Made by a program: the position numbers and the translations under genes
Notes under the pieces: generated by a model
Seen by the model: only the letters and a program-made list of their open reading frames with translations
Databases searched by the model: none
What the model was told of the DNA's origin: nothing
Shown here: positions 6,902 through 32,393 of the stretch, piece after piece
Layout: every line of letters begins with the position of its first letter
How positions within the stretch are numbered: position 1 is the stretch's first letter
Origin: Gammaproteobacteria bacterium
GTDB lineage: Bacteria > Pseudomonadota > Gammaproteobacteria > Chromatiales > Chromatiaceae
DNA: 32,393 nucleotides
Assembly: GCA_009908845.1 (NCBI GenBank)
Contig: JAAAOQ010000064.1
Coordinates: 1 to 32,393 of the forward strand
Direction: 5' to 3'

Positions 6902-6965
6902 GCACTCAGTCTTGCCGGGGACTGAGCCCCACCGATCAGCGAGCATAGCAAGCGCCTGCTCAGGC

Positions 6966-16064: not shown

Positions 16065-16097
16065 GATCGATGCAATCGGTCTTGACGGACAGCAGCT

Positions 16098-16183: not shown

Positions 16184-16233
16184 GTCGAACGGCAGGCCGG
16201 CGTGCTGTTTGCTGGCGCGCCAGTCGCATGGGC

Positions 16234-17232
16234 TCAGGCCCGGTTGGTCGCTGCGCGCGGTTCGCGCACGGCCGCTGGGTTCGCCGTGAGAGCCGATGGC
16301 TGTGGCCGCCCATGAGCGGAATCGCCGGCGCGGGCGGGCGCATGGAGGGGACGGGTGAAGATGCGCGTGACAGCATCCTCCATGCGATGCGCACAACGCT
16401 CGACGCGGCGCTCCAGCCAACTGTGCAGCAGCACCACCGGGATGGCGACGCTCAAGCCCGCCGCCGTTGTCAGCAGCGCCTGCCAGATCCCGCCCGACAA
16501 CAGCGCCGGATCGACCTGACTGCCCGCTGCGGCGAGCTGCCGAAACGCCTCGATCATCCCGAGAACGGTCCCGAGCAATCCGAGCAAAGGGCTCAGGGTC
16601 GCGATCACCTCCAGCGCGCGCAACCAGCTACGCAGTTGCTCGAGCTGCGCGGTCGCAGAGCGGGTGAGCTCCTCGCGGAGCAGTTCGAGGCCGTCTGCGG
16701 ACTGTGCCGGCGCTGCCTGGAGGCCGTTGATTGCTTGAACGACAAGGATTGCGCTGGGCTGGCGGCTATTGCCGATCGCCTGTAGGGCCGCGTCGGGATC
16801 GTCTTGATGCCAGCGCTCGAGCGCGGTCTCGACCGGCTGCCGCGCATCCACACGCAGCCGAGCGAACTGCCAGAGCTTTGCCAGCACGATGGTCAGCGCG
16901 GCGATGGACATGGCCGCCAACACCAACAGCACCGGACCTCCGTTACCAGCGAGATCGACCAGCGGGCTGAGGGTGTCTTGCAATACGGGGAGGTCAGGTG
17001 TGGCCGTGGGCGCTCCGGCATCCGACGCAGCCGTCTGGGCGCCATGCAGTCCGTCTGCTGGCTCGCTCGGCGCTGCGGCAGCATCGGTCTCGCCCGGCGG
17101 GTTCTCGTCGGCGCCGACAGCAGCCGGCTCAACCGATGTGCTGCGTGGCGCCTCGCTGATCGCGGCCCCGTCATTGGCCGTGGCCGACGCCTCATCGACG
17201 GTGGAGCGGGTTTCGTGTTGCTGATTACTCAT
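16234..17232 (-). CDS. exbB: ExbB/TolQ-type proton channel with long N-terminal extension
   Basis: This 332-residue MotA/TolQ/ExbB protein has three hydrophobic segments: one around residues 98-122 (GPVLLVLAAMSIAALTIVLA), and two around 205-232 (LSPLLGLLGTVLGMIEAF) and 248-275 (GGIWQALLTTAAGLSVAIPV). The latter two are the conserved channel-lining pair with the GTVxGM and the TTAAGLxxAIP motifs. The first ~90 residues are an acidic Ala/Pro/Glu-rich extension without a clear signal peptide, unusual for the family. It normally needs ExbD, which is not encoded here. It is divergent from the ZnuD-like receptor, with a Zur-like site between them, and upstream of tonB on the same strand. Confidence 0.9.
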   Translation of the reverse strand: MSNQQHETRSTVDEASATANDGAAISEAPRSTSVEPAAVGADENPPGETDAAAAPSEPADGLHGAQTAASDAGAPTATPDLPVLQDTLSPLVDLAGNGGPVLLVLAAMSIAALTIVLAKLWQFARLRVDARQPVETALERWHQDDPDAALQAIGNSRQPSAILVVQAINGLQAAPAQSADGLELLREELTRSATAQLEQLRSWLRALEVIATLSPLLGLLGTVLGMIEAFRQLAAAGSQVDPALLSGGIWQALLTTAAGLSVAIPVVLLHSWLERRVERCAHRMEDAVTRIFTRPLHAPARAGDSAHGRPQPSALTANPAAVREPRAATNRA

Positions 17233-17396
17233 CGTGTGCGCACAAACTGCCTCGCGTTGCGCTAGACCGGCCTGAAGGATCTGGCCTGGAGGATCTACTG
17301 ACTGGATGTTGGCCGAGTCTGCGGGAAGGTGTGCCGAGGAACGGCACCACCGAGTTGTCGAGAAAGCAACGACTGTTGCTTCGGCGTCGCATGGTT

Positions 17397-17419
17397 GATA
17401 TGTTATACCATGTTTTGAT
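17397..17419. promoter_or_regulatory. Predicted Zur operator, exbB/znuD divergent promoter
   Basis: The core ATGTTATACCAT (17400-17411) is one mismatch from the palindrome ATGTTATAACAT and shares 11 of 12 bases with the site at 12621. It lies 40 bp before the receptor start (17459) and 165 bp before exbB. A repressor bound here could control the receptor and perhaps exbB-tonB. Confidence 0.65.
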
Positions 17420-17458
17420 GATTCTAAACCCCGCTGCTGTTCGATGAGGTCAATCCCA

Positions 17459-19564
17459 ATGCGAAACCTGACTCTAGACCTGCTGATCGGGTCGCTGCTT
17501 GGCGGCGTCGCCGCGCCCGTGCTCGCTCAGCCGATGAGCGATGGTCAACCCTTGTCGGTTGAACTCGACGCCATCGAGGTGACGGCCGGTGTGCCGGTGC
17601 CGGGTGACCCGATGTTGCAAGCCGCCAACGTCAATGTGCTGGCCGGCGAAGACCTCCGCCGCCGCGAGCGTTTTACCATCGGCGAGACCCTTGACGCGCT
17701 ACCTGGCGTTGCTTCGATCACGGCGGGCAGCACGGTTGGCAAGCCGGTGGTGCGAGGGCTCACCGGAAACCAGATTCAAGTGTTATCGAACGGGATTGGC
17801 GTCGATTATCAGCAGTATGGCGCGCGCCATCCGCCGAATATCGACCCCTTCCTCGCCGGACGCATCGAGGTGGTGCGTGGCGCGTCCAGTCTGCTCTACG
17901 GCTCCGGCGCCTTGGGTGGGGCCATTGATGTGCAGGCGCCGGCCTTCGAGTTTACGCCGCAGGGCGAAAGCGAAGCCGTTGCCGACACGCTCTTCGCCTA
18001 TCACAGCAATAACGCCCAATGGGACACCGGCGCCAAGGCGCGGGCAAGCAGCGATTGGCTGAGCGTCGATGCCGGCGTGATGCGCCGCTCTGCGGGCAAT
18101 CTCAACACACCCAACGCGAAGACAGCGGCCGAGTCCGGTAATCCGAGTGACCCCAAGTTCACCGGCGAGCTGCCGTTCACCGATTTCGATCAGCTCAACG
18201 CGCAGTTCGGGGTCGGTATGCTGACCGACATCGGCGAACTCGGCCTCCGCTACAACCAGTGGAACAACGAGAACAACTTCCTGCTACCGAATGGTAAAGG
18301 GATTGGACTCTGGCTGCGCAACGATCAGCTTCAGTTCACCGGCGCCCTGCCGCTCGCCTCGGGCTGGGAGCTGAAGCCGACCCTGTCCTGGCAGCGCAAC
18401 CTGCGCCGCGCCAACAGTGCCGGGACGCCGCTGAGCTCCGGCTACGATGGCACCGTTCACTTGGAGTTCGATCGCTATGTCGCGCGCTTGGAGGCGATTC
18501 ACGGCGCGCTCGGGCCGTTTGACGGCGGCACCCTCGGTGTCGAGTACACGAAGAAGACCCAAGACTCGCGCGGCACCACGGTGCTGGCGCCTGGCGGCGA
18601 GGTCAGCAATCTGGCGCTGTTCGCGTTCGAGAGCAAGGACATCGGCGCCTGGACGCTGCAGGCGGGGCTGCGCCATGACTGGCACTCGGTGACCGGCGAC
18701 GCCGGCCGGACCCGGGCGCCGGTCGATTTCGTCGGTCGCGATTCGCACGATTTTGCGGTCTTCACCGGCTCGCTCGGCGCCGTTTATCGGCTCACCGATC
18801 AGGTCGCTATCGCCTCGAATATCAGTCGGGGTTTCCGCGCGCCAAGCCTGTTCGAGCTCTACGCCGATGGCGTCCATGGCGGTGTCGCGGCTATCCAAGA
18901 GGGTAATCCCGACCTGGAGCCAGAGAAGTCCATCAACGTCGATCTCGGGCTGCGCTGGAACACGCCGCGGCTGCAGGGCAGCGCGACGGTCTATCGCAAC
19001 GCCATCAGCGATTACATCTTCCTGCAGGATACCGGTGTGTCTCGGGACGGCTTGCCGGTCTTCGCCTATCAGCAGAACGACGCCCTGCTGACAGGCCTGG
19101 AGTTGGAAGCGCGTTGGCAGGTCACCGATCAGCTCGAGCTCGGCGGCACCTTGGATCTGGTGCGCGGCACCAATGACCTCACCGATGATGATCTTCCGTT
19201 GCTGCCCGCCGACTCCCTGCGCCTCGAGGCGACCTATCGCTTCGCCGAGCGGGGACCGATTCGCGAGCCCTATCTGACCCTTGGCATGCGTCACGCGGCA
19301 GCGAAGGACGCGGCGCCCGGCGAGCCGTTCGCACAGTTCGACCGGCTGCCGTTCGGGACCGCCTCGACCGATGCCTACACGCTCGCCGACCTGGACCTGG
19401 GCTTTGCGTTCCGCGCCTTCGGCAACCGCTTGGCCCGGGTCGATCTGGCGGTGCGCAACCTGTTCGATACCGAGTACCGAGATTTCCTCGATACCTATAA
19501 GGGCTATGCACTGAGTCCGGGGCGCGATGTCCGCATTAGCTTGAGCGTGCCTTTCGGCGGTTAG
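17459..19564 (+). CDS. znuD: ZnuD-like TonB-dependent zinc receptor
   Basis: This 701-residue receptor is read from ATG 17459, preceded by GAGG at a good distance (ATG 17444 is an alternative). A signal peptide ends near VLAQP. The TonB box region LDAIEVTAG is followed by the plug with RFTIGETLDALPGVASI, KPVVRGLTGNQIQVLSNGI and the GARHPPNIDPFLAGRIEVVRG segment. The barrel contains the family motifs SRGFRAPSLFELYADGVHG and GNPDLEPEKSINVDLGLRW and ends in ISLSVPFGG. These match the ZnuD class of zinc (or zinc/heme) receptors known from Neisseria. A Zur-like site lies 40 bp upstream and exbB/tonB are divergent, so zinc uptake is well supported by context. The terminal residues are Gly-Gly rather than the usual aromatic. 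Confidence 0.85.
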   Translation: MRNLTLDLLIGSLLGGVAAPVLAQPMSDGQPLSVELDAIEVTAGVPVPGDPMLQAANVNVLAGEDLRRRERFTIGETLDALPGVASITAGSTVGKPVVRGLTGNQIQVLSNGIGVDYQQYGARHPPNIDPFLAGRIEVVRGASSLLYGSGALGGAIDVQAPAFEFTPQGESEAVADTLFAYHSNNAQWDTGAKARASSDWLSVDAGVMRRSAGNLNTPNAKTAAESGNPSDPKFTGELPFTDFDQLNAQFGVGMLTDIGELGLRYNQWNNENNFLLPNGKGIGLWLRNDQLQFTGALPLASGWELKPTLSWQRNLRRANSAGTPLSSGYDGTVHLEFDRYVARLEAIHGALGPFDGGTLGVEYTKKTQDSRGTTVLAPGGEVSNLALFAFESKDIGAWTLQAGLRHDWHSVTGDAGRTRAPVDFVGRDSHDFAVFTGSLGAVYRLTDQVAIASNISRGFRAPSLFELYADGVHGGVAAIQEGNPDLEPEKSINVDLGLRWNTPRLQGSATVYRNAISDYIFLQDTGVSRDGLPVFAYQQNDALLTGLELEARWQVTDQLELGGTLDLVRGTNDLTDDDLPLLPADSLRLEATYRFAERGPIREPYLTLGMRHAAAKDAAPGEPFAQFDRLPFGTASTDAYTLADLDLGFAFRAFGNRLARVDLAVRNLFDTEYRDFLDTYKGYALSPGRDVRISLSVPFGG

Positions 19565-19744: not shown

Positions 19745-20785
19745 TCAGCCGCCCGTCATGCTCATGCGGCGAAACGCAATGGGCGCGATGCCCGGGCCGA
19801 GGTCGCAGCCTTCCGGCTTGAGCCCCATCGCCGCGGTGATCGCATTCCGCAAACAGGTTATGTCGCCGGAGTGGGCACGCAGCAGCGCGCGCAGATCGAG
19901 CGAGTGCTCGTTGCCGAGGCAGAGCAGGAGCCGTCCCTCGGCCGTGACGCGCACGCGGTTGCAGTCGTTGCAGAAGTTGTGGCTTCGAGGGGAGATCAAG
20001 CCGAGGCGCGTCTGCGAGCCCGGGATGCGGTAGTAGCGTGCCGGGCCGCCGGTGGTTTCGGTGGTCGGGATCAGGCTCAGCTTCGCCGCGAGCTCCTCGC
20101 GAATGCGATCGGTCGGGTAGTAGGTCTCGGCTCGGTCATGCTCGCCGATCGTACCGAACGGCATCTCTTCGATGAAGCTGAGATTGATCCCCTTGGCGAG
20201 CGCGAAGCGGGCCAGATCGAGGATCTCGTCGTGGTTGCGGCCTTTGAGGATCACGGCGTTGAGCTTGATCCGCTCGAAGCCGGCAGCGATCGCGGCATCG
20301 ATACCGTGCAGCACCTGCGCAAGATCGCCGGTGCGGGTCAGGGATCGGAAGCGTTCCGGGCGCAGGCTGTCGAGACTGATGTTGATGCGGCGAACGCCCG
20401 CTTCGCGCAGCGGGACCGCGAGCCGCTCGAGCTGCGCCCCGTTGGTCGTAATCACCAGCTCGCAGAGGCCGGGGAGGGACGCGATCCGACGCATCAGCTC
20501 GATGGCGCCACGTCGCATGAGAGGCTCCCCGCCCGTGAGCCGGATCTTGTGGACGCCGAGGTCCGTGAACGCCGCGGCCACAGCAGCCAACTCGTCTAGC
20601 GACAACAGCCGATCCGGGCGGGCAAAGCGCGTGTCCGACGTCATGCAGTAAATGCAGCGAAAATTGCAGCGGTCCGTCAGGGATAGGCGCAGGTACGTGA
20701 TGCGTCGGCCGAACCGATCGATCAGCCCCGCCCGTGGACGGGTACCAAACCGAGGCCGTTGGGTCTGCATGTCAGGGGGCGTCAT
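19745..20785 (-). CDS. moaA: GTP 3',8-cyclase, molybdenum cofactor synthesis
   Basis: This is a 346-residue radical SAM enzyme that converts GTP to 3',8-cyclo-GTP, the first step of molybdopterin synthesis. The N-terminal SAM cluster is in DRCNFRCIYC (CxxxCxxC) and the C-terminal cluster in FCNDCNRVRVTAEGRLLLC (CxxC-x13-C). LTGGEPLMR and ISLDSL are conserved, and the protein ends in Gly-Gly (SMTGG), which the family needs for activity. ATG 20785, with GGAG upstream, is chosen; the frame runs open to a TTG at 20905 but without family resemblance. A TATAAT on the minus strand at 20941-20946 may be its -10. It is divergent from the molybdoenzyme operon and presumably helps supply its cofactor. 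Confidence 0.93.
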   Translation of the reverse strand: MTPPDMQTQRPRFGTRPRAGLIDRFGRRITYLRLSLTDRCNFRCIYCMTSDTRFARPDRLLSLDELAAVAAAFTDLGVHKIRLTGGEPLMRRGAIELMRRIASLPGLCELVITTNGAQLERLAVPLREAGVRRINISLDSLRPERFRSLTRTGDLAQVLHGIDAAIAAGFERIKLNAVILKGRNHDEILDLARFALAKGINLSFIEEMPFGTIGEHDRAETYYPTDRIREELAAKLSLIPTTETTGGPARYYRIPGSQTRLGLISPRSHNFCNDCNRVRVTAEGRLLLCLGNEHSLDLRALLRAHSGDITCLRNAITAAMGLKPEGCDLGPGIAPIAFRRMSMTGG

Positions 20786-21149
20786 CAGGCCATGCTCCGC
20801 GTTCGATTCGCCACTCGCTGAAGAGTAGCAGAGCCGGGCGCCACGCTGACCGCCTACCCGGACCGTGCCATCCTGCTCGACTCCTGGCAGGTCGTTTGCG
20901 CTCAATGCTCGGCGACTTGGCTTGGCGGCCTGCCTATTGAATTATAAATCAAAGACTTGAGGTCTCTCTCCGCCGGCCCAGGGAACGCCCCTCGCGACGC
21001 CGCCGAGTCCCTTCCGAACGTTCGCGTTACATCGCATTCACATTTTTCTACCCGTTGTTCACAGGGCCTCGGAACCCTGTTTACGCCTCCTCGCTATAAC
21101 ACCTGCTAGACCGGCAAGTGACGCACCGAGAACGGGGAGGTCCCTGACG
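20786..21149. other. Divergent promoter region moaA / Mo-enzyme operon
   Basis: This 364-bp region holds a good minus-strand -10 for moaA (TATAAT, complement of 20941-20946) and, on the plus strand, the repeated-box promoter described at 21026-21100. If moaA starts at 20785 its leader is about 150 nt; I could not fold a convincing molybdenum-cofactor riboswitch in it. Confidence 0.55.
21026..21100 (+). promoter_or_regulatory. Tor-box-like promoter module 1 (Mo-enzyme operon)
   Basis: Direct repeats ATTCAC (21036-21041), GTTCAC (21057-21062) and GTTTAC (21079-21084) are spaced 21 and 22 bp apart. A -10 hexamer TATAAC follows at 21095-21100, ten bases after the last box, and an extra half-site GTTAC lies ten bases before the first. 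The same boxes at the same spacing recur at 28221 and 32100. The tract CTACCCGTTGTTCAC around the second box is the best conserved part. The probable ligand is the TorR-like regulator encoded at 27389-28126; E. coli tor boxes (CTGTTCATAT) are similar direct repeats. Confidence 0.75.
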
Positions 21150-23882
21150 ATGAAAATGCTCGACCGGCGCGAGTTCCTGCGCACGACCACGCTCTCCTGC
21201 GTCGGTGTCTTGGCGAGTGGCCAGACTTGGGCCCTGAACGCCTTGAAACCCATCGCCGATCCCCTCGGCAGCGAATACCCCTATCGCGGCTGGGAGGATC
21301 TCTACCGCAACGAATGGACCTGGGATCGCATCGGCTACGCGGCGCACTGCATCAATTGTTTAGGTAACTGTGCTTGGCAGGTGTTCGTCAAAGACGGCAT
21401 CGTGCTCCGTGAGGAACAGCTCGCCGAGTATCCGCAGATCAATCCCCGCGTGCCCGATGCGGACCCACGCGGCTGCCAGAAGGGCGCGATCCATTCGGCG
21501 GCGATGTACGAGGGGGATCGCATCCACTACCCGATGAAGCGCGTCGGGGCGCGCGGCGAGGGCAAGTGGCAACGCCTGTCCTGGGACCAGGCCGCCACCG
21601 AGATCGCCGACAAGGTGCTCGACATCTTCGAGCACCACGGCCCCGGACAGCTGATGACTCACACCGGAAGCGGCAATCTGAGCCATGTGCGGCTGGCCGC
21701 GCCCTATCGACTGGCCTCGCTGCTGGGCGGCGTGCAGCTCGACATCTTCACCGATGTCGGCGACCTCAACACCGGCGCCCACCTAGCCTATGGCGATCCA
21801 TTGCAGAGCTTCACGTCGGACGCCTGGTTCGACGCCGATTACATCATGCTGTCGCTGATCAATCCGAACGCGACGCGCATACCGGACGCGCATTTCATTT
21901 GGGAGGCCCGTTGGAATGGGGCCCGGGTGGTGAGCATCGCGCCAGACTACAACCCGAGCTCGGTGCACGCCGACCTCTGGATACCGATGAAGCCAGGCGC
22001 CGATCCATTCTTCAACATGTCGCTGGCACAGGTCATTCTGGAAAAAGGCCTGTACAAGGCGGACTTCATCAAGGAGCAGACCGACCTGACGTTGCTGGTG
22101 CGCGAGGACAACCACCGCCTGCTGCGGCAGAGCGACTTGGTCGCCGACGGCAAGGACGACGTCTTCTACCTCTGGGATCAGCGCTCACAGCAGGCCGTAC
22201 CAGCCCCCGGCTCGATGGGTAGCGAGAAGCGCTCGATCGCGCTCGAGTGTCTGGACCCGGCGCTTGAGGGGACCTTCGAGGTCACGGGGATCGCTGTACG
22301 CCCGGCCTTTGAGCACATGCGCGCCGAGGCCATGCGGTGGACCCCGGAGGTCACCCAAGAGGTGACCGGCGTACACCCGAATATCGTCCGCCAGGAGGCC
22401 TGGCACCTGGCTACCGCGCGAAAGGCCGTGCTGCTGAACGGTTTCAATATCGGTCGCTACAGCAACGGTCTCTACACCGGCTGGGCGCAAACCCTGCTAC
22501 TGGCCCTGACTGGCCACGGCGGCCCAAGCGGTGGCCTCGACACCTCGTGGATTGAATGGAGCCAGCCCAAGCTCCTGGCGCTGGCCCTGTTTGACTTCCA
22601 GAAGCTCCCGCGCCTGGAGGCGGGCGGTCTGGGCGAGTTCATGCGCGGCGAGATGTTCCGCGAGGCCAAGGAGCACTATGACCCGGTCAAGCTGAAGGAC
22701 CGCGTCGGCTTCGACATCGACGAGCTGCTGGAGATGATCCAAGAGAGCATCGACGACCAGGGAATGCCCTACCACGGCAAGGTCAAAGGCATGATCTCGA
22801 TAGCCGACAACAAGTTCCGACGCAACAAGGGCACCGACCGCTACCGCGAGCGCATTTTGGAGGAGGTCGAGGAGCTCTTCGTCGATGTCAATGTGCGCAT
22901 GGACTCGACCGCCGAGTGGGCCGATTATGTCCTGCCGGCGGCCAGCCACTACGAGGCATGGGACTTGCGCTCGGTGGGCTTCCACCGCTTCGTCAATGTC
23001 TTCACGGCGCCGGTCGAACCGATCGGCGAGGCCAAGCCGGACTGGGACATCATGGCCTTGCTGGCACGCAAGATCCAGGATCGCGCTATTGCCCGCGGGA
23101 TCGGGTCGATCCAAGACGGTGATGTCACACGCGACCTCGATCGGATTTATGACGACTTCACGATGGAGGGTTCGCTCGCGTCCCAGGAAGATGCGGTCCG
23201 TTGGCTGGTCGATAACAGCCCCGAGATCGACGGTCCCCTCGAGGAGGGCGCCAAGCGCGGCTTTTTTATCCTCAACGAGCAGGGTGGTCCCGCCCACAGT
23301 CCGCTGCATGCAGACAAGCCCGTGCATCCCTTCGAGCGCCAGGTTGTCGATAAGACCCCGTATCCGACGCTGTCCGGGCGCATCACCTTCTATTGCGACC
23401 ACGACCGCTTCATTCGACTCGGCGCCCGCGTGCCGACGGCACGCCACCATGCCGGGCGCGACGCCTCCCATCACCCGCTAAGCTTCTACACGCCGCACAC
23501 CCGCTGGGGCATCCACAGCAACTGGCGCTCGAACAAGTACATGATGCGCCTCCAGCGTGGCGAACCGAACCTCTATATCAGCCCGCAGCTGGCCGCGCGC
23601 AAGGGCATTGCCGACGGCTCTCGCGTGCGCGTCTTCAACGGGATCGGCGAGTTCTTCGCGCAGGCGAAGTTCTATCCGAGCCTGCCCGCCGATGCGCTGA
23701 TGATGGAACACGGGTGGGAGCCACATCAGTACGAGCAGCGCAAGCCGCTCAACAACGTCACCGCCACCATCCTCCAACCGCTCGAGCTCGTCGGCAACTG
23801 GGGCCACCTGAAGTTCGCCCTGTGGAAGTGGAACGCGAACCAGCTGGCGCACGAAAGCAGCGTCGACATTGAGCGGGCCTGA
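21150..23882 (+). CDS. Type II DMSO-reductase-family molybdenum enzyme, catalytic alpha subunit
   Basis: This 910-residue subunit has a twin-arginine signal DRREFLRTTT (Arg6-Arg7), so it is exported folded to the periplasm. The FS0 cluster is bound by His66, Cys70, Cys74 and Cys109 in H-x3-C-x3-C form, a hallmark of the type II group (SerA, ClrA, DdhA, EbdA, PcrA, NarG). The segment DVGDLNTGAHLAYGD (Asp205) aligns with the region that supplies the Mo-coordinating Asp, followed by AWFDADYI, NPNATRIPDAHF and DYNPSSVHADLWIP. A molybdopterin-binding C-terminal domain follows (FYTPHTRWGIHSNWR). GGGGAGG precedes ATG 21150. The ABDC gene order matches ser, clr and ddh operons. The substrate cannot be assigned; a dehydrogenase feeding a c-type cytochrome or a reductase of an oxyanion are both possible. 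Confidence 0.88.
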   Translation: MKMLDRREFLRTTTLSCVGVLASGQTWALNALKPIADPLGSEYPYRGWEDLYRNEWTWDRIGYAAHCINCLGNCAWQVFVKDGIVLREEQLAEYPQINPRVPDADPRGCQKGAIHSAAMYEGDRIHYPMKRVGARGEGKWQRLSWDQAATEIADKVLDIFEHHGPGQLMTHTGSGNLSHVRLAAPYRLASLLGGVQLDIFTDVGDLNTGAHLAYGDPLQSFTSDAWFDADYIMLSLINPNATRIPDAHFIWEARWNGARVVSIAPDYNPSSVHADLWIPMKPGADPFFNMSLAQVILEKGLYKADFIKEQTDLTLLVREDNHRLLRQSDLVADGKDDVFYLWDQRSQQAVPAPGSMGSEKRSIALECLDPALEGTFEVTGIAVRPAFEHMRAEAMRWTPEVTQEVTGVHPNIVRQEAWHLATARKAVLLNGFNIGRYSNGLYTGWAQTLLLALTGHGGPSGGLDTSWIEWSQPKLLALALFDFQKLPRLEAGGLGEFMRGEMFREAKEHYDPVKLKDRVGFDIDELLEMIQESIDDQGMPYHGKVKGMISIADNKFRRNKGTDRYRERILEEVEELFVDVNVRMDSTAEWADYVLPAASHYEAWDLRSVGFHRFVNVFTAPVEPIGEAKPDWDIMALLARKIQDRAIARGIGSIQDGDVTRDLDRIYDDFTMEGSLASQEDAVRWLVDNSPEIDGPLEEGAKRGFFILNEQGGPAHSPLHADKPVHPFERQVVDKTPYPTLSGRITFYCDHDRFIRLGARVPTARHHAGRDASHHPLSFYTPHTRWGIHSNWRSNKYMMRLQRGEPNLYISPQLAARKGIADGSRVRVFNGIGEFFAQAKFYPSLPADALMMEHGWEPHQYEQRKPLNNVTATILQPLELVGNWGHLKFALWKWNANQLAHESSVDIERA

Positions 23883-23901
23883 GCCCCAGGAGCACCCACC
23901 G

Positions 23902-24888
23902 ATGACCAACCAATCCAAGCGCCAGCTGCGCATGGTCATGGACCTCAACAAGTGCATCGGCTGCCACACCTGCACCTCGGCCTGCAAGCTGATGTGGACG
24001 AATCGCAACGGCCGCGATTACATGTACTGGAACAACGTAGAGACCCGCCCCGGCGCAGGCTATCCGCGCGACTTTCAGGACAAGGGCGGCGGCTTCGACG
24101 AGAACGGCCGGCTCAAGCTCGGCGAGACGCCGCCGCTCGAGGACTATGGCATCCCCTGGGAGTACAACTACGAGGGCAGCCTGATCAACGGCAGCGACCC
24201 CAGCCTGCGCCCCAACGTGAAGCCGAGTTGGGGTGCGAACTGGGATGAGGACAAGGGCGACGGGGAGTACCCGAACAGCCATTATTTCTACCTGCCAAGG
24301 CTCTGCAACCACTGCAGCAATCCGGCCTGTCTGGCGGCCTGTCCACGCCATGCGATCTATAAACGCCAGGAGGACGGCATCGTCCTGGTCGATCAGGCCC
24401 GCTGCCGCGGTTACCGCTATTGCGTCACCGCTTGTCCGTACAAGAAGGTCTACTTCAACGAGCAGATCGGCAAATCAGAGAAGTGCCTCTTTTGCTATCC
24501 GCGTGTTGAGAAGGGGCTGCCGATGGCCTGTGCCCGTCAATGCGTTGGACGCATCCGTTGGGTCGGCTACGCGGACGACACCGAGGGCGCGGTGCATCTG
24601 CTGGTGGAGAAATATCGGGTTGCCTTACCGTTGCTCGCCGATCGTGGCACCCGTCCGAACGTCTTCTATGTCCCGCCCGACTCGCCGCTGCGGATCGGGA
24701 CCGACGGTGCACCGGAGGCAAAGCGGCGCATTCCGATCGAGTACTTGGAAGGACTGTTCGGACCGCGTGTCGGGGAGGTGCTCGAGACCCTGGCCGCCGA
24801 GCGCGCGCGCAGGGCGCGCGGTGAATCCTCCGAGCTGATGGATCTCCTCATCGGCTACCGCCACAAGGAATTCTTCAAATTGGGGTAA
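23902..24888 (+). CDS. Four-cluster Fe-S beta subunit of the Mo enzyme
   Basis: This 328-residue electron-transfer subunit starts at ATG 23902 with an AGGAG site 19 bp after the alpha stop. Four Cys groups are visible: CIGCHTCTSACK, CNHCSNPACLAACPRHA, CRGYRYCVTACPYKK and CLFCYPRV...CARQCVGR. In the third group a Tyr replaces the second Cys (CRGYRYC), as Trp does in NarH, which implies one [3Fe-4S] and three [4Fe-4S] clusters. It lacks its own signal peptide and should travel with alpha through Tat. It carries electrons between the alpha FS0 cluster and the gamma heme. NarH, SerB, DdhB and EbdB are its relatives. Confidence 0.92.
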   Translation: MTNQSKRQLRMVMDLNKCIGCHTCTSACKLMWTNRNGRDYMYWNNVETRPGAGYPRDFQDKGGGFDENGRLKLGETPPLEDYGIPWEYNYEGSLINGSDPSLRPNVKPSWGANWDEDKGDGEYPNSHYFYLPRLCNHCSNPACLAACPRHAIYKRQEDGIVLVDQARCRGYRYCVTACPYKKVYFNEQIGKSEKCLFCYPRVEKGLPMACARQCVGRIRWVGYADDTEGAVHLLVEKYRVALPLLADRGTRPNVFYVPPDSPLRIGTDGAPEAKRRIPIEYLEGLFGPRVGEVLETLAAERARRARGESSELMDLLIGYRHKEFFKLG

Positions 24889-24892
24889 TGCC

Positions 24893-25618
24893 ATGACTGA
24901 GATCAACGCGCATTGTCGCGAGGGGGCTTGGGAGCGCTCCCGGGCCTGGCAGCTCCTCTCGATCGCCTTCGCCCACCCGGTGCCGGAGATCCACGAGCAG
25001 CTGACCGAGGGCCACTTTCAGCAGGCCTTCCAACAGACCTTGGCGACGGTACACGGGGTACGGATGGCGCTGCCTCCCCTCAGCGTCGATGGCGTCGAGT
25101 TCGAGGCCCAGTACATCACCTTGTTCGACACCGGACCGAAGGGGCGACCGCTGGTCTCACTGCGCGCGAGCGCCTACGAGACCCTGCTAGCGGGCGAGCC
25201 GGCGCCGCGACTGATGCAAAAGTACGCTCAGTTCTACCGGCACTTCGGTGTGCAAGCGAGCGCCGGTCACGGCGACGTCGCCCTGCCGGATCACCTGACC
25301 TGTCAGCTCGACTGTCTTGTTTGGCTCACCCATCTGGAGGGCCGCGCTCAGGCGTCGCGTGATGCGGCAGGGGGCTACCGGCGGGCGCAGCGAGACTTTG
25401 TCGAGCGGCTCTTGGGGCCACACTGCCGCGAGTTCGCGCCCCGGCTATCTGATGCCTGCCGTCAGCGTGGCTTTGATCCCTTCTTCGCGGCGCTTGCCGA
25501 GGCCCTCGATCAGTTGCAAGCCCTTGAGCTGAAATTCCTTCGATCCACGCTACCCGCCAGCGACCCAAGGCCGCCCGCGCCCGTGGCGGTCCGGCCGGCG
25601 CAGAACCTCTGGGGATAA
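24893..25618 (+). CDS. TorD/DmsD-like chaperone of the Mo enzyme (delta)
   Basis: This 241-residue cytosolic protein begins four bases after the beta stop. It is helical, with the family features YITLFDTGPKGRPLVSL, YAQFYRHFGV and LPDHLTCQLDCLVWL (the conserved E/xPDHL segment). Proteins at this place in ser, clr, ddh and ebd operons assist molybdenum cofactor insertion and hold the alpha signal peptide until folding is complete; they are not part of the mature enzyme. The position between beta and gamma (ABDC order) supports the assignment. Confidence 0.85.
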   Translation: MTEINAHCREGAWERSRAWQLLSIAFAHPVPEIHEQLTEGHFQQAFQQTLATVHGVRMALPPLSVDGVEFEAQYITLFDTGPKGRPLVSLRASAYETLLAGEPAPRLMQKYAQFYRHFGVQASAGHGDVALPDHLTCQLDCLVWLTHLEGRAQASRDAAGGYRRAQRDFVERLLGPHCREFAPRLSDACRQRGFDPFFAALAEALDQLQALELKFLRSTLPASDPRPPAPVAVRPAQNLWG

Positions 25619-25621
25619 CCG

Positions 25622-26407
25622 ATGTACAAATCACTGCGAAGAGTCAGTCTCGTCGCGCTGGCCGCGGCCCTGCTGCAGGTGAGTCCAATCAGTGCCAGCG
25701 CCGCCAACCCGAATGCATTGGCGGTCGAGCCGGGGGCGACCATCCCGTTAACCGTGTTTCCCAGTCAGGTCTTCCTGCGGGTAGCGAACGACCCCAGTGA
25801 GATCCTCTGGGAGCGCGTGCCCGAGTATCAGGTCGAGCTGGTCGCGGCGCCGGTCGTGCACCACTCGGTGGAGCTGCGCAAATCGAGCGCCGGGGCCCCT
25901 ATGCCGCTCTACTTCAGTGTTGCGAGCGACGGCGAGCGCCTCTATGTCAAGCTGCGCTGGCGGGATGCGACGCGTGACCGCGAGACCGGAATGGACCAGA
26001 CCCGCGACGGTGCCGCCGTCCAGTTCGCGATGCGCCCAGGGGAACGGACCTCGCACATGATGGGGGCCCCGAACAGGCCCGTGAACATCTGGTATTGGCG
26101 CCCCGATGGCGATCGCGCCGAGAACCTCGGTGCGGGCGGCTTTGGCTCGGCCACCACCCTACCGGACCAGCCCGTGAGCGCCCGCAGCCACTACGGGACG
26201 GCGCGCGTCGCCGATGACAATCAGTGGACGGTCGTCCTGTCGCGGCCACTCGCCGCCGGTGGGGAGTACGACGCGCGCTTCGAGCCGGGCATGGTGCACG
26301 CGATGGCCTTCGCCGTCTGGCAGGGTGACTACGACCAGCGCGATGGACTCAAGCGCACCACCCCGGGCTGGATCAACGTTGATTTCAGTCCCCTTGGGGA
26401 GGGGTAG
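25622..26407 (+). CDS. Heme-b gamma subunit of the Mo enzyme
   Basis: This 261-residue protein has a Sec signal peptide ending near ISASAAN (residue ~28), so it reaches the periplasm by a different route from alpha-beta. The mature part is the beta-sandwich of the ethylbenzene dehydrogenase-like heme-binding family: LYFSVASDGERLYVKLRWRD, DGAAVQFAMRPG, VNIWYW and a C-terminal GWINVDF. Candidate axial ligands are a Met in SHMMGAPNRP and the Lys in GLKRTTPGW, matching the Met-Lys ligation known in EbdC and DdhC. It receives or delivers electrons between the Fe-S subunit and a periplasmic cytochrome, plausibly the diheme protein encoded at 28341. Only three bases separate it from the chaperone gene. 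Confidence 0.88.
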   Translation: MYKSLRRVSLVALAAALLQVSPISASAANPNALAVEPGATIPLTVFPSQVFLRVANDPSEILWERVPEYQVELVAAPVVHHSVELRKSSAGAPMPLYFSVASDGERLYVKLRWRDATRDRETGMDQTRDGAAVQFAMRPGERTSHMMGAPNRPVNIWYWRPDGDRAENLGAGGFGSATTLPDQPVSARSHYGTARVADDNQWTVVLSRPLAAGGEYDARFEPGMVHAMAFAVWQGDYDQRDGLKRTTPGWINVDFSPLGEG

Positions 26408-26411
26408 GGCG

Positions 26412-27347
26412 GTGCCGGTGCCGATCGTGACACTGTCGGGGCAGATCGAAACGGACCCCTCACCCTGCGCGCGCGGTCACGCCTGCAGCTTCTGTCCAGA
26501 GGAAGACAGTTGCCAGCGCGACAAGCCGGGGCATGATCGCGATCTCGTCGCGGAGCGACTTGCGGCAATGGATCGCATCCTGCTCGTGCTCGGAAACAAG
26601 GGCGGGGTCGGCAAGAGCACGGTCGCGGCGAACCTTGCTGCCGCGCTCGCCCAGAAGGGCCATCGGGTTGGGCTGGCCGATGCCGACATCCACGGTCCAA
26701 ACGCCGGGGTCTTCTTCGGCTGCCAGGGCGAGCGGGTCAGGGTTGGCAGTGGCGGCATTCGGCCCACTCGGTATCAGTCACCGGACGGGGCCACTGGGCT
26801 GGCGCTGGGCTCACTAGCCATGCTGCTGCCGGAGCTGGACTCTCCCGTCGTCTGGCGCGATGCCTACAAGTTCGAGTTCATCCACCACCTGGCCGGCTCC
26901 TTCGACTGGGGGCCGCTTGACTACTGGGTCGTGGACATGCCTCCGGGCACCGGCAATGAGCTGATCACCCTCTGCGATCTGCTGGAGGGCCGCCAGGCCG
27001 CGGCGCTCCTGGTAACGACACCACAGGCGATCGCGCTGCACGACAGTCTCAAAGCGGCGCGCTTTTGCCGCGAGCGGGGCTTGCCGATCCTAGGCTGGGT
27101 CGAGAATATGGCCGGCGTGGTCTGTCCGCACTGCGGTGGCGAGATCCAGCTCTTCCCGACATCCGAGCTCAGCGAGCGACTGACCGCTGCCGGGTTGGCG
27201 ACGCTCGCGCGTCTGCCACTGTCACCGCGACTGGCATTCAGATCGGATGCAGGCGCACCCGTCGTCGTTGCGGACCCTGGCAGTCAGGAGGCCGAGAGCT
27301 TCACCGATCTCGCCTCGCGCTGCACGGACTGGCCGGCCCCCTCCTAA
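26412..27347 (+). CDS. Mrp/NBP35-type P-loop ATPase with N-terminal cysteine cluster
   Basis: The start is GTG 26412, preceded by a strong GGGGAGGGG site and four bases after the gamma stop; ATG 26568 would cut off the cysteine-rich part. The 311-residue protein has the deviant Walker A GNKGGVGKST (61-70), DADIHGPN, the VVDMPPGTG Walker B region and the Mrp hallmark CPHCGG (CxxC) that bridges a dimer with an Fe-S cluster. The N-terminus has Cys19, Cys25, Cys28 and Cys34 (C-x5-C-x2-C-x5-C) and lacks the DUF59 domain of classical Mrp. This resembles N-terminal clusters of NBP35-type carriers. As the last gene of the operon it probably supplies Fe-S clusters to the alpha and beta subunits; this is inferred. 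Confidence 0.8.
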   Translation: MPVPIVTLSGQIETDPSPCARGHACSFCPEEDSCQRDKPGHDRDLVAERLAAMDRILLVLGNKGGVGKSTVAANLAAALAQKGHRVGLADADIHGPNAGVFFGCQGERVRVGSGGIRPTRYQSPDGATGLALGSLAMLLPELDSPVVWRDAYKFEFIHHLAGSFDWGPLDYWVVDMPPGTGNELITLCDLLEGRQAAALLVTTPQAIALHDSLKAARFCRERGLPILGWVENMAGVVCPHCGGEIQLFPTSELSERLTAAGLATLARLPLSPRLAFRSDAGAPVVVADPGSQEAESFTDLASRCTDWPAPS

Positions 27348-27388
27348 AGCGTGGAGGTTGAAACGCACCGGGTCGGTCGAGAACGCGG

Positions 27389-28126
27389 CTAGTCGCCGTG
27401 AACCTTTGCCGCAAAGAGATAGCCGACGCCCTGCATAGTGATGATCATCCGTGGCGCGCGCGGATCATCCCCGAGCTTGCGGCGCAGGCGCCCAATCAGG
27501 ACATCGACGGTTCGATCGGACGGGTGCCAATCACGGTTGCTAACGTGATCGAGCAGCGCATCGCGGCTCAGGGCGCGGCCGGGTCTAGCCGTGAGAGCCT
27601 CTAAGAGATTGAATTCGCCACGGGTGAGGTTGATGCGCTGACCATCAGTGGCTAACAAGCAGCGCTGGTGGAGATCTAACGACCAATCCACGAAGTTGCG
27701 GCGGATCGGCTTTTCGTCCTTGTCAGTCTGCCCTTTGACGCGCCGCAGCAGATTGCGTGCCCGCACAAGGAGCTCGCGGGCATTGAAGGGTTTACCGATA
27801 TAGTCGTCGGCGCCAAACTCCAGGCCCAAGATTCGATCCACATCCTCGGCGCGGCCACTAACGAAGATGACGGGCAGTTGCGAGTGCTGGCGAATCTCTC
27901 GCATCAGGCTGTAGCCATCCTCTCCCGGTAGGCCGACATCTAACAGAACGAGATCGACGCTCTGTCGCGCCATGGTGTCTCGTGCCTGCGCCGCATCGCC
28001 GGCCTCGGCGACCACATAGCCATCCTGCTCAAAATAACCCGCTAGCGTGGCACAGGTGACGGGATCGTCGTCGACGATCAAGACGCGGTTATTTGGCAGT
28101 TGCGGCTGTGGATCAGTATTGATCAT
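27389..28126 (-). CDS. OmpR/TorR-type response regulator
   Basis: This 245-residue protein has a receiver domain (RVLIVDDDP, phospho-acceptor Asp63 in LLDVGLP, Lys in GKPFNA) and an OmpR-type winged helix at the C-terminus (DRTVDVLIGRLRRKLGDD, GVGYLF). The receiver/output pattern is closest to TorR-like regulators. It is convergent with the Mrp gene (41 bp apart) and divergent from the diheme cytochrome gene. Its partner is probably the hybrid kinase at 29310, whose terminal Hpt domain would be the phosphodonor, and its targets the three repeated-box promoters. An AT-rich stretch with the palindrome ATGAATTTCAT (28139-28149) precedes its start and may belong to its own promoter. Confidence 0.9.
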   Translation of the reverse strand: MINTDPQPQLPNNRVLIVDDDPVTCATLAGYFEQDGYVVAEAGDAAQARDTMARQSVDLVLLDVGLPGEDGYSLMREIRQHSQLPVIFVSGRAEDVDRILGLEFGADDYIGKPFNARELLVRARNLLRRVKGQTDKDEKPIRRNFVDWSLDLHQRCLLATDGQRINLTRGEFNLLEALTARPGRALSRDALLDHVSNRDWHPSDRTVDVLIGRLRRKLGDDPRAPRMIITMQGVGYLFAAKVHGD

Positions 28127-28220
28127 TATGAGAAAATTATGAATTTCATATGGTTGCGGAACTGCATTTAGACTACAGCGCGATTCGCCCTACCTCAAGT
28201 CCGCGCTCGGGCCGCCATCG

Positions 28221-28296
28221 GTTTTCGTGGCGTTCACAATTTCCTACCCGTCGTTTACAGGTCATGCGTTTGCCGTTTACACCTATTCGGTAAAAG
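28221..28296 (+). promoter_or_regulatory. Tor-box-like promoter module 2 (diheme cytochrome)
   Basis: Boxes GTTCAC (28232-28237), GTTTAC (28253-28258) and GTTTAC (28275-28280) are at 21- and 22-bp steps, then TAAAAG (28291-28296) as -10 after ten bases. GTTTTC lies 11 bp before the first box. The tract CTACCCGTCGTTTACAG is almost identical to module 1. The start codon follows at 28341. Confidence 0.75.
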
Positions 28297-28340
28297 GGAT
28301 TTGTGCGCGCCAACGGCGTCGTCAAAGCGGAGACGAAGCG

Positions 28341-29078
28341 ATGAAAGATAAAGTGACGGAAAGCGTTCTCTTGGCAATGGTCCTAGCGACCGGCGGGACC
28401 ATGCTGCCGGCAGCCGCGAGCGAGCCGAGGCAGCCGTGGGCCCCGGGCATCGAGTCGCCTGGCTATGTCTGGAACGAGCAGAAAGGCGAGAAGCTCCTAG
28501 CGCTGAAGGCAGAGGGCAATGTCATCCGCGGTGAGATCGCCTTTGAGGTGTGCCAAAATTGCCACGGCTTCGGTGCCCCGGGTGACGCTGAGGGTCGCTA
28601 TCCGCGCCTGGCCGGACAGCACGCGTCAGTGTTGATCAAGCAGATGACCGATGTGCGCGCCGGCCGCCGCGACTATCCGAGCGAGTATCCCTTCTTGACA
28701 GAGCATATCGTCAACGTCCAGGAGATCGCCGACGTTGCCGCCTACCTCGAGAGTCTGCCCGTGACATCTGATAACGGCAAGGGTCGTGGCGATGACCTCG
28801 AGCGCGGTCAGGCGCTCTTCGTCGAGGACTGCGAGACCTGCCACGGCGTCTACGGCGAAGGTGATGCTGAGGGGTTCTTTCCGCGCGTCTCGGGCCAGCA
28901 CTACGGGTATTTGGTCCGCGAGTCACGTGACATCCGCGACGGGCGCCGGCGCAACGCGAACCCGGAGATGGTCGATGCGATCGACGACTACACGGACGAG
29001 GAAATCGAGGCCGTCGCGGATTTCATGTCCCGTCTGCCCATCGATGTTCCGCAGGAGGGCAGTGCGGAAGGGAGCTAG
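28341..29078 (+). CDS. Diheme cytochrome c (c4-like)
   Basis: This 245-residue periplasmic protein starts at ATG 28341 with GGAG upstream; the frame is open further 5' but that part overlaps the promoter boxes. A signal peptide ends near AAASEP (about residue 27). Two heme sites are seen, CQNCH (71-75) and CETCH (164-168), each in a cytochrome c fold of about 85 residues with RYPRLAGQH / FFPRVSGQH repeats. This places it in the cytochrome c4 (c553-like tandem) family. Candidate Met ligands are in KQMTDVRAGRR and NPEMVDA. It shares its promoter type with the Mo-enzyme operon, so it probably exchanges electrons with the heme-b gamma subunit and a membrane electron-transport chain. Confidence 0.88.
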   Translation: MKDKVTESVLLAMVLATGGTMLPAAASEPRQPWAPGIESPGYVWNEQKGEKLLALKAEGNVIRGEIAFEVCQNCHGFGAPGDAEGRYPRLAGQHASVLIKQMTDVRAGRRDYPSEYPFLTEHIVNVQEIADVAAYLESLPVTSDNGKGRGDDLERGQALFVEDCETCHGVYGEGDAEGFFPRVSGQHYGYLVRESRDIRDGRRRNANPEMVDAIDDYTDEEIEAVADFMSRLPIDVPQEGSAEGS

Positions 29079-29309
29079 GCGTGAGGCTGGGGGCTAGGGG
29101 TCTAGGGTGACAAAGGTCGCGGCCGGACCCATGGATTGGCCTTCATGGCCTGGTGCAGAGGCGCCGGTCGTGACACTGTCCTGGCTGCCCAAAGCGGCTC
29201 GACCTTAAGCGCGGAAATCGCGTCGTACCTGGAGCCCCGTCACCTTGCAGCGAGTTGTGAACCCGCCTAGGCTCCCGAGCCATGATCCCCGATCACCTGA
29301 GGCGCCTCG

Positions 29310-31697
29310 ATGACGCATCCCCTTCAGCAGCGGCTCTGCGAATGCGTCCGCCGGCATGAAGACCGGCTCGTCGAGCAGGTGATCGACGCCGCCAGAAGGA
29401 CCGGCTATTTCCAATACACACCGGCGCTGACCCGCGCCTGGCGTGAATCGGTCGTCGGCCTCAGTGCCGATTTGACCGCTGCACTTTCGGCGCAGGACGA
29501 TCCGCAACCGATCGTCGCCGACGTCGACTACGTCGATGATCCGCATTGCCGATTCGCGCTGGAGACTGGCCGTCGACATCGCGCGCGGGGCGTCACGCTG
29601 AGCCTCTTCCTCGGACTGATGAAGCACTTTCGGGGGTGCTATCTAGAACTGGTCAGGGAGTGCGATCTGCCGCCGGGCGACAGTGAGCTAGGCCGGAGCT
29701 TCGTGGAGGGCTTCTTCGACCGCGTTGAGGTCGCCCTGTGCACCGACTGGTCACGTCCGGACAAGGACGCGGCGATTGCCGAGCTGACCGCGAAGAACCG
29801 GCTCCTGACCAACGAGAAGGACAAGTACCTGACGCTCTTCGAGAGCATCCAGGATCCCGTCTTCGTGCTCGATCCGACCGGTCGGGTCGAGAATCTGAAT
29901 GCCGCAGCCTGGCGCCTGATCGGGATCGAGACCGACTCGGGTGAGGCCTATTACGGCCACAATCGCCAACTCGCCTCACAGCATCGGATCGCAGCGCTGC
30001 TCGATACCGAGCCCCTCGAGGATGGGGCCACCATCAGGATGGAGACACCGCAGGGACGGCGCAGCTTCGATGTGCACCGACGGGTCATCCTCGACACCGG
30101 TGACAAGTACTCGGGCTCGGTGTTGGTCCTTAGCGATGTCACGGCGCACCTGCGGGCGCTCGCCGAGACCGAGCAAGCCAATCGGGTCAAATCGGCCTTC
30201 CTTGCGACCATCAGCCACGAGATCCGCACGCCACTCAACGGCATCCTCGGTGCGGTCAGGCTGCTCGGCCGTGATCCACTGACACGCGAGCAGCAGTCTT
30301 ATGCAAAGGCCATCGCCCGTTCGGGAGAGCGGCTGCAGACCCTGATCGACAACGTGCTCGACTACTCGCGTATCGAGGCCGGGAAGCTCGCGCTCGATCT
30401 GGGTCCCTTCAGCCTGCGCGAGATCCTCGACAACGTCATCGCGATCATGTCACCGCGTGCCGAAGAGCTGGGCCTGGCGCTCGTCCTCGACGCCCCCGAC
30501 CTGCCGAGCACGGCCGTGCGCGGCGATGCCTGCAAGCTCCAGCAGGTGCTGCTGAATCTGGTCGGCAATGCGCTCAAGTTTAGCGAGCGCGGCGAAGTGA
30601 CCTTGCGGGTGCGTCGCGTGGCGGTCGATCAGACGCGCTTCGAGGTCGAAGACCGCGGCCCTGGAATCGGCGCCACGGAGCGCGAACGGCTGTTTCAGCC
30701 ATTCACACAGCTTCAGCGAGCGGCATCGGAGCGCGACCGGGGTAGCGGGCTCGGCCTTGCGATCTGCCGGCATCTGACCGAGATCATGGGCGGGCGCATC
30801 GGCGTCGAGCCCGCGCAGCCTCGCGGGAGCCTGTTTTGGCTCGAGATCTCGCTGCCGCCGGTCAGCGAGGCCGCGGCACCGGCCTGTCCGGCTGTCCAAG
30901 CGCCTCAGCCCTGCCGGCCGCTGTCGATCCTGCTCGTCGAGGACGAGGAGGTGAATCAGCTCGTGGCGCGGGGCCTACTCGAGTGTGCCGGGCACCGGGT
31001 CAGCGTTGCGGCCAGCGGGGCCGCGGCCCTTAACGCACTGCGCCGAGGTCGAAAGCCGGCCTTCGATCTGGTCATGCTCGATATCCGTCTGCCAGACATG
31101 GACGGCTTCGAGGTCGCCGAGCAGATCCGCGAGCTCACCGAGTGGCGCTTGCCGGTCGTCGCCGTCACCGCCCACGTCGCCCGCCAGGAACTCAAGCGTC
31201 GCGATACGCTCGACGCCCTGATTCTCAAGCCCTTCGATCCGGACGAGCTGCAGCGGACGCTAGCGCGTCTCACTGGCGACGGCGCGCGCGTGCCCTTTCT
31301 CGATCGGGCCCTGCTTTGCGAGCGTCTGGAGCAGCTCGGCCCGGCACGGACTGCCAAGATCGTCGCCGCCTTCGAACGGGTCTGTTCGGCCACCTTGACC
31401 GAATTCTACGATGGGCCCCGTCCAGCACCGGCGACGATCACGGCGGCAGCCCACCGCCTGCGCGGGGCCGCCAACGGGCTCGGGCTGCGCCAACTGGCGC
31501 GGCAGGCGGCCAAGGTCGAAGCGGCTCAGCCGGACCAAGCCGGTCTGGATGCGCTACTGGAAGACCTCCGGACGAGCATCATGCGCTCGCGCCGGGTACT
31601 CGCCGCCTTCTGGGGGGCAATGGACCCATTGAAGCAGGCCCCGGTCAGCGACTCCGGATCGTCGCCCCGAACTGATAGCCGACGCCATGTAGCGTGA
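29310..31697 (+). CDS. Soluble hybrid histidine kinase, TorS-like (PAS-HisKA-HATPase-REC-Hpt)
   Basis: This 795-residue protein starts at ATG 29310 after a GAGG site. Order: an all-helical N-terminal domain (~1-150) of unrecognised ligand; a helix and PAS domain (~160-290, IQDPVFVLDPTGRVENLN); HisKA with SHEIRTPLNG (His303); HATPase with NALKF, DRGPGIG and GSGLGLAI; a receiver (ILLVEDEEVN, Asp591 in MLDIRLP); and an Hpt domain with AHRLRGAANGLG (His715). No transmembrane helix is seen, so unlike TorS it must sense a cytosolic signal. The terminal Hpt should phosphorylate the TorR-like regulator at 27389. The last ~18 codons run antisense into the remnant of a second regulator gene, so the original C-terminus may have been replaced. 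Confidence 0.88.
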   Translation: MTHPLQQRLCECVRRHEDRLVEQVIDAARRTGYFQYTPALTRAWRESVVGLSADLTAALSAQDDPQPIVADVDYVDDPHCRFALETGRRHRARGVTLSLFLGLMKHFRGCYLELVRECDLPPGDSELGRSFVEGFFDRVEVALCTDWSRPDKDAAIAELTAKNRLLTNEKDKYLTLFESIQDPVFVLDPTGRVENLNAAAWRLIGIETDSGEAYYGHNRQLASQHRIAALLDTEPLEDGATIRMETPQGRRSFDVHRRVILDTGDKYSGSVLVLSDVTAHLRALAETEQANRVKSAFLATISHEIRTPLNGILGAVRLLGRDPLTREQQSYAKAIARSGERLQTLIDNVLDYSRIEAGKLALDLGPFSLREILDNVIAIMSPRAEELGLALVLDAPDLPSTAVRGDACKLQQVLLNLVGNALKFSERGEVTLRVRRVAVDQTRFEVEDRGPGIGATERERLFQPFTQLQRAASERDRGSGLGLAICRHLTEIMGGRIGVEPAQPRGSLFWLEISLPPVSEAAAPACPAVQAPQPCRPLSILLVEDEEVNQLVARGLLECAGHRVSVAASGAAALNALRRGRKPAFDLVMLDIRLPDMDGFEVAEQIRELTEWRLPVVAVTAHVARQELKRRDTLDALILKPFDPDELQRTLARLTGDGARVPFLDRALLCERLEQLGPARTAKIVAAFERVCSATLTEFYDGPRPAPATITAAAHRLRGAANGLGLRQLARQAAKVEAAQPDQAGLDALLEDLRTSIMRSRRVLAAFWGAMDPLKQAPVSDSGSSPRTDSRRHVA

Positions 31698-32107
31698 CGA
31701 TCAGTCGCGGCGCTCGGGGATCATCGCCCACCTTTTGGCGCAGCCGGCCGGACATCGACCGCATTGAAGGGATTCACAACAAGGTCGTCAGCACCCCGCT
31801 CGAGCCCGAGGATGCGCTCGACATCCGAGTCCCAGCCTCTGACGAAGATCACCGGCAGCAGCGAGTGCTGGCGGATCTCCCGCATCAGGCTGAAGCCGTC
31901 ATCGCCCGGCAGGCGGTCGTCTAGCAAGACGAGATCGATCTCTCCGCAGCCCCTGGGATAGCGCGTCTGCAGGGCATCGGCCACTTCGGCGACCGCGTAG
32001 CCGCACGTGCTCGAAATGGCACGCGAGGGTTGCATAAGCGACCGGGTCGTCGTCGACATCGAGCGCCACACGCAGCCTCTCGCCCGGTCTCGCTGTCGCG
32101 TTTTCAA
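31645..32107 (-). pseudogene. Second TorR-like response regulator, decayed
   Basis: Read on the minus strand, pieces of a paralogue of the 27389 regulator appear in three frames: LDVDDDPVAYATLACHFE; then GYAVAEVADAL, DLVLLDDRLPGDDGFSLM, REIRQHSLLPVIFV and ILGLERGADDL up to NPFNA; then GRLRQKVGDDPRAPR, LIVTLHGVGYQFGA and a stop at 31645. Between PFNA and VDV about 100 residues (linker and start of the winged helix) are deleted, and a few bases are lost at the junction. A first frameshift lies near CHFEH. The invariant Lys of KPF is Asn. No good start codon exists. It lies between the hybrid kinase and the third repeated-box promoter, the same arrangement as the intact regulator. Confidence 0.85.
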
Positions 32108-32175
32108 TCCGTTGACAAGGTTCTACGCGTCGTTAACCCGAATCGGAATGCCCGTTTACCCCCATTCGATATAAA
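32100..32175 (+). promoter_or_regulatory. Tor-box-like promoter module 3 (right-edge gene)
   Basis: Boxes GTTGAC (32111-32116), GTTAAC (32132-32137) and GTTTAC (32154-32159) at 21- and 22-bp steps; -10 TATAAA at 32170-32175, ten bases after the last box. GTTTTC at 32100-32105 lies 11 bp before the first box, as in module 2. This copy is the most divergent in boxes 1 and 2. Confidence 0.7.
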
Positions 32176-32315
32176 GGATCTTGAGGCGCCCGTTGCCGGC
32201 CGCACCCGGCCGATGCGCGTCTGCGCCTTTGTCGACCTGTTTGCAACGGGTCATACCGTGCCGCCTTCAAGGCGTGCCAGTCGGGCAGATCCATCGACCG
32301 GAAGAGAGAACGATA

Positions 32316-32393
32316 ATGATGCCAACACTCTTGTGGCAGCGCTCCATCGGCATCCTGCCGGTGGCCCTGCTCTGCGCGCAGCTGACCTACGCC
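32316..32393 (+). CDS. Exported protein, 5' end only
   Basis: Only the first 26 codons are in the window. ATG 32316 (or 32319) follows a GGAAGAGAG ribosome site. The peptide is a Sec-type signal: short polar start with Arg, hydrophobic core IGILPVALLCAQ, and a possible cleavage after LTYA at the window end. The promoter module upstream is shared with the Mo enzyme and the diheme cytochrome, so this is probably another periplasmic component of the same system, for example a cytochrome or binding protein. The family cannot be named. Confidence 0.7.
   Translation, partial: MMPTLLWQRSIGILPVALLCAQLTYA

Follow-up and report, generated by a model that had tools for sequence, protein, structure and literature searches.

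Here we describe three arrays of short direct repeats in a 32,393-nt contig (JAAAOQ010000064.1, hereafter the window) from a gammaproteobacterium of the family Chromatiaceae, and find that by their layout they are tor-box arrays of the kind that stands before torC in Escherichia coli. The window is one entire contig of a genome of 4.16 Mb that is 87% complete. On the basis of sequence comparisons, we consider it probable that the arrays are TorR-type operators, through which a TorR-like response regulator (encoded at 27389–28126), together with a hybrid histidine kinase (29310–31697), co-induces the operon of a type II molybdoenzyme and the gene for a diheme cytochrome c. The operator is of a known kind, its target is new and its sensor is different; a tor-type operator module would seem to have been re-used for a different molybdoenzyme. 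E. coli and Chromatiaceae share the tor-box layout to the base pair although the controlled enzyme differs, and the arrays define a regulon, exact enough to be put to the test, for a molybdoenzyme of purple sulfur bacteria, on whose regulation we found no paper in the open-licence literature.

Layout of the arrays

Each array comprises a half-site, three boxes and a −10 hexamer on the + strand. Array 1 (21026–21100), which precedes the molybdoenzyme operon, has its half-site at 21026, box 1 at 21036, box 2 at 21057, box 3 at 21079–21084 and the hexamer TATAAC at 21095–21100. Array 2 (28221–28296), which sits between the divergent regulator and cytochrome genes, has the same elements at 28221, 28232, 28253 and 28275–28280, followed by TAAAAG at 28291–28296, a hexamer that matches TATAAT at 4/6 positions. 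Array 3 (32100–32175) precedes a gene truncated by the contig end and has them at 32100, 32111, 32132 and 32154–32159, with TATAAA at 32170–32175. Counted from box 1, the half-site lies at −10 (array 1) or −11 (arrays 2 and 3), box 2 at +21, box 3 at +43 and the hexamer at +59. A preliminary description of this DNA had reported three arrays with this shared layout, and all of them are where it placed them, box 3 reading GTTTAC in 3/3. It had also given CTAC-S-CGT-Y-GTT-N-AC as invariant, which holds within the window and fails in relatives, where CTACCAGTT, CCACCTGCC, CTACCAGCC and TTACCGCTC stand in its place; across relatives, it is the boxes that are conserved rather than this context. The box core of the window arrays is RTTYAC(A), and the CTAC element, roughly one helical turn past box 1, could be an additional half-site.

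A strict pattern (GTTNAC-N6-CTACSCGTYGTTNAC-N16-GTTTAC, with up to 3 mismatches) matched the window 3 times, against a mean of 0.00 over 100 shuffles. Many random genomic hits had been named at the outset as a result that would speak against the arrays; when the organism's own genome was scanned with this pattern at the same tolerance, the 3 arrays were the only matches (reversed control, 0). Among 273 other genomes drawn from the class there were 0 matches (reversed control, 2), in a draw that did not include the relatives later shown to have arrays and with a pattern that is too strict for those relatives. The + strand of the window has 68 RTTNAY hexamers; when these were combined into triplets with both steps ranging over 8–39 bases, the sole spacing was 21/22, which occurred 3 times. 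A relaxed pattern applied to 7 genomes recovered the known arrays plus one chance-like match with 3 mismatches in genome G027 (reversed control, 0). Over 55 related genomes, it gave 7 matches at 0–1 mismatch, every one at a locus described here, and 12 further matches at 2–3 mismatches, compared with 16 in the reversed control; we take these 12 to be chance matches.

In the aligned array rows we saw by eye no −35-like hexamer 17 bases ahead of the array hexamers, and for this reason the promoters should depend on an activator. A sigma-70 scan of 20900–32393 returned 2 promoter-like sites (22711 and 26510; shuffle mean, 1.5) and none at any array, but its rule demands that the second hexamer end in T, and it could thus not have reported the array −10 hexamers.

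Correspondence with E. coli torC and arrays in relatives

In the E. coli torR–torC region (locus L088), GTTCAT stands at 4476, 4486, 4507 and 4529, in steps of 10, 21 and 22, and TAAGAT follows ten bases past the last box. These boxes agree with the published ones (PMC9239176), and the torC −10 element has been placed at the same AAGAT (PMC10845959). All three window arrays have the layout of a TorR operator, that is, steps of 10 or 11, 21 and 22, then ten bases to the −10 hexamer. In sequence, RTTYAC(A) is near to, and not identical with, the GTTCAT of the tor box (CTGTTCATAT); the boxes of L019, a locus of genome G010 from the same family as the window organism, come in mixed forms. A matrix of ten sites, with no E. 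coli input, had its top match within the 10-kb E. coli tor locus at the torC boxes, in register, at a score of 12.9 vs −9.2 for the next.

A matrix made from the three window arrays, as the preliminary description had proposed, was scanned over the loci of relatives. The top matches lie before the same operon in L021, L022, L023 and L024, at the position equivalent to that of array 1 (L016 and L017, the contigs to which L023 and L022 belong, do not add to the count). Also ranked above all other matches in the loci scanned were two L019 sites and, at the place equivalent to that of array 2, a site before the cytochrome gene in L021. The lowest-scoring of these relative sites had 15.4 vs 13.6 for the best other match, a margin that is thin for L019. 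Of the two L019 arrays, one precedes torC and the other torA; torD stands between these genes, and torR is divergent. TorR is identified there at 293.9 bits, above the NCBI cut-off of 275, TorD at 144.7 bits (cut-off 132) and TorA at 1055.7 bits on NF011682 (cut-off 909) and 1013 on TIGR02164, under its cut-off of 1465; the TorC-like pentaheme cytochrome, at 477.0 bits, is just below its cut-off of 478.2. A spacing and a −10 register equal to those of E. coli torC, together with arrays before torC and torA in a locus whose TorR is above cut-off, uphold the tor-box analogy that had been drawn from the window.

The regulator and its probable link to the arrays

The regulator (27389–28126, − strand) has TorR as its best NCBIfam model, at 248.3 bits, and is 45% identical to E. 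coli TorR, with which it has in common the recognition-helix stretch RTVDVLI-x-RLR-x-KL. The kinase (29310–31697, + strand) comprises PAS, HisKA, HATPase, receiver and Hpt domains and has TorS as its best NCBIfam model; hydropathy indicated no transmembrane segment in it. In the set of 55 related genomes, 4 (G000, G010, G011 and G028) gave a regulator match with an expectation (E) value of 1e-80 or better, and these are exactly the genomes with an array at 0–1 mismatch. Across promoters of the enzyme family, arrays occur in 17/21 whose fetched stretch includes a TorR-like gene and in 0/45 whose stretch does not. This survey covered 66 upstream regions from 63 of 67 loci, three of them counted twice and L076, L085, L086 and L087 omitted because the gene start is missing, and it took as an array either the 21/22 skeleton or tandem GTTTACA at 10–11 bp; some loci have short flanks, where a regulator outside the stretch would be missed. 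The co-occurrence supports a link between the arrays and the 27389 regulator. OmpR-family regulators use direct-repeat sites, and the organism's own genome encodes other paralogues of OmpR type (39% and 40% identity for the top two), which could suggest that another OmpR-family regulator of the cell, and not the 27389 protein, binds the arrays. We regard this as very unlikely: paralogues of 36–46% identity are present in the relatives too, whereas the arrays track the close homologue.

Several observations weigh against our assignment of the arrays as operators of a TorR-type system. The window regulator misses the TorR equivalog cut-off of NF008034 (248.3 vs 275 bits), and the kinase, with 422.6 bits over residues 276–654, is under the TorS equivalog cut-off of TIGR02956 (676.5). 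Genome G027 has a regulator match at an E value of 3e-63 with 48% identity, yet no array at <3 mismatches. By the survey rule, 4/21 enzyme promoters with a regulator are without arrays; L025 and L026 have enzymes that are 77% identical and a kinase match, but no array or regulator in the fetched stretch; and L055, a second enzyme copy in the Thiorhodococcus bin, has no array. The scores of 56–92 that the ten-site matrix gives to its own training rows are for sites on which it was trained; the next best match, at 14.9, falls in Rhodovulum imhoffii, at the promoter for this enzyme family. To these is added the weakness of the third unit.

The third array and a decayed regulator gene

Three targets had been claimed for the arrays. 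The molybdoenzyme operon and the diheme cytochrome are probable targets, and the third, an exported protein, is uncertain: the window holds 26 codons of its gene, a decayed torR-like copy lies alongside and the unit is absent from L021, the closest relative. The gene (32316–32393, + strand) has a start that by eye is signal-peptide-like and is cut by the contig end. The decayed second torR-like gene (31657–32107, − strand) consists of two pieces in different frames, matching residues 35–120 at 62% and 210–242 at 64%, with the part between unmatched. At the DNA level it shows the same 73% identity to each of three torR-like genes, those of the window, L021 and L022, and this equal distance from all three marks it as an old copy. 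Kinase and regulator genes are convergent in L019, L022, L023 and L024, which is how the decayed copy is placed in the window, and the intact window regulator may be the copy that moved.

Array 3 may be a relic or stem from an error of assembly, in which case arrays 1 and 2 would be at work and the third unit would not be a real target; this is a serious possibility that in our judgement falls somewhat short of even. The array adjoins the decayed gene and ends 218 bases from the contig end, and the gene behind it is known by its 26 codons only. No counterpart of array 3 was found in the relatives, including L021, in which unrelated genes (named by eye) follow the kinase. Despite the decay of the neighbouring gene, however, array 3 keeps all its boxes and its TATAAA, and it fits the pattern with 0 mismatches.

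The molybdoenzyme operon and the cytochrome

The operon behind array 1 lies on the + strand and begins with the catalytic subunit of a type II enzyme of the dimethyl sulfoxide (DMSO) reductase family (21150–23882; TIGR03479, 1223.2 bits, above the cut-off of 984.75). It continues with an iron-sulfur subunit (23869–24888; TIGR03478, 550 bits, cut-off 481), a chaperone (24893–25618; TIGR03482, 124 bits, under the cut-off of 152), a heme b subunit (25622–26407; TIGR03477, 180 bits, cut-off 170) and an Mrp/ApbC-type P-loop ATPase (26214–27347), whose listed frame overlaps the preceding gene, so that its true start is probably further in. The diheme cytochrome c behind array 2 (28341–29078, + strand) has cytochromes c4 as its nearest solved structures. 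Divergent from array 1 is moaA (19745–20905, − strand), for molybdenum cofactor synthesis, which also adjoins the operon in L021, L023 and L024; beyond it, 15042–19564 encodes a TonB protein, an ExbB-like protein and a TonB-dependent receptor. In the Thiorhodococcus bin (L022), the interval from the Mrp-type ATPase to the kinase, which in the window contains the regulator and the cytochrome, holds a 627-residue protein with repeats (16336–18219).

Among named genomes, the most similar catalytic subunits are those of Chromatiaceae (Thiohalocapsa, 93%; Thiorhodococcus and Rhabdochromatium, 88–90%). The enzyme appears nearest to putative dimethyl sulfide (DMS) dehydrogenases, a reading that rests on its nearness to alphaproteobacterial enzymes and on what is known of DdhA, a donor enzyme in anoxygenic photosynthesis (PMC10100899). 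The enzyme tree combines 28 hand-picked loci of the 67 with Ideonella ClrA and the window; some of its branches are very long (L086 and L074), its root is unsure, and the DMS-dehydrogenase relatives in it are putative ones, such as R. imhoffii. Stutzerimonas chloritidismutans AW-1 has a 64% identical enzyme that shares its stretch with a chlorite dismutase, which raises the alternative that the window enzyme reduces chlorate or another substrate and that the rewiring was not towards DMS oxidation. We consider this unlikely. The chlorite dismutase family (PF06778) has no match in the organism's own genome, 87% complete, which makes a chlorate reductase less likely; Ideonella ClrA is only 43.5% identical to the window enzyme; and the tree groups the window with Chromatiaceae enzymes, separate from the AW-1 clade. 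The AW-1 locus (L050) encodes at 6929–7777, beside the 64% enzyme, a protein 59% identical to the Ideonella chlorite dismutase, which suggests a chlorate reductase unlike Ideonella ClrA.

A model for co-induction

In the TorR-type model that we favour, the kinase, apparently soluble, would phosphorylate the regulator; as it is without a transmembrane segment, sensing probably takes place in the cytosol, through the PAS region or the N-terminal portion of the protein. The phosphorylated regulator is predicted to bind the direct repeats, which share one DNA face, and would recruit RNA polymerase to promoters with a −10 hexamer and no −35-like hexamer. The periplasmic type II molybdoenzyme and the diheme cytochrome c would thereby be induced together, and the cytochrome may accept the electrons of the enzyme, a prediction that the two proteins work together. 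The exported protein may be expressed from the third promoter, which is built alike. The position of array 2 between the divergent regulator and cytochrome genes, as in E. coli torR/torC, makes autoregulation possible. More tentatively, and with somewhat more doubt than belief, we propose that in purple sulfur bacteria a complete TorR/TorS operator module, unchanged in architecture to the base pair, was re-used, from trimethylamine N-oxide (TMAO) reduction, for an oxidative molybdoenzyme (DMS to DMSO) and an electron-accepting cytochrome, with a soluble kinase replacing the membrane sensor. If so, DMS oxidation would be switched on by machinery built for the reverse kind of reaction.

Comparison with known systems

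The E. coli torCAD promoter has the same architecture as the window arrays, with four boxes at 10, 21 and 22 and ten bases to the −10 hexamer, and in both cases the regulator gene is divergent from a c-type cytochrome gene, which in E. coli is torC. The two systems differ in box sequence (GTTCAT in E. coli, RTTYAC in the window), in target (TorA as opposed to a type II enzyme) and in sensor, TorS having a transmembrane segment that the window kinase lacks. TorT senses TMAO in the periplasm of E. coli (PMC10845959), and no TorT-like protein was found among the window proteins scanned.

The torC–torD–torA locus of G010 (L019) has the same arrays, a similar soluble kinase (36% identity) and TorR (55%), with convergent kinase and regulator genes. 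Unlike in the window, its arrays would control a TMAO reductase; a search of the G010 genome turned up a single type II homologue, 36% identical. In alphaproteobacterial loci of the enzyme family (Rhodovulum imhoffii, Salipiger thiooxidans and others), a kinase and a TorR-like regulator, 34–39% identical in the 5 aligned, lie upstream of the operon in 17/17. Tandem GTTTACA boxes precede the operon in 13/17 (L066, L030, L034 and 10 more) vs 0/2674 background stretches; a count of 0/24 in hand-picked gammaproteobacterial loci was superseded by the 66-region survey. These alphaproteobacterial boxes are spaced at 10–11 bp, without the 21/22 skeleton, and thus represent a second, differently spaced type of array.

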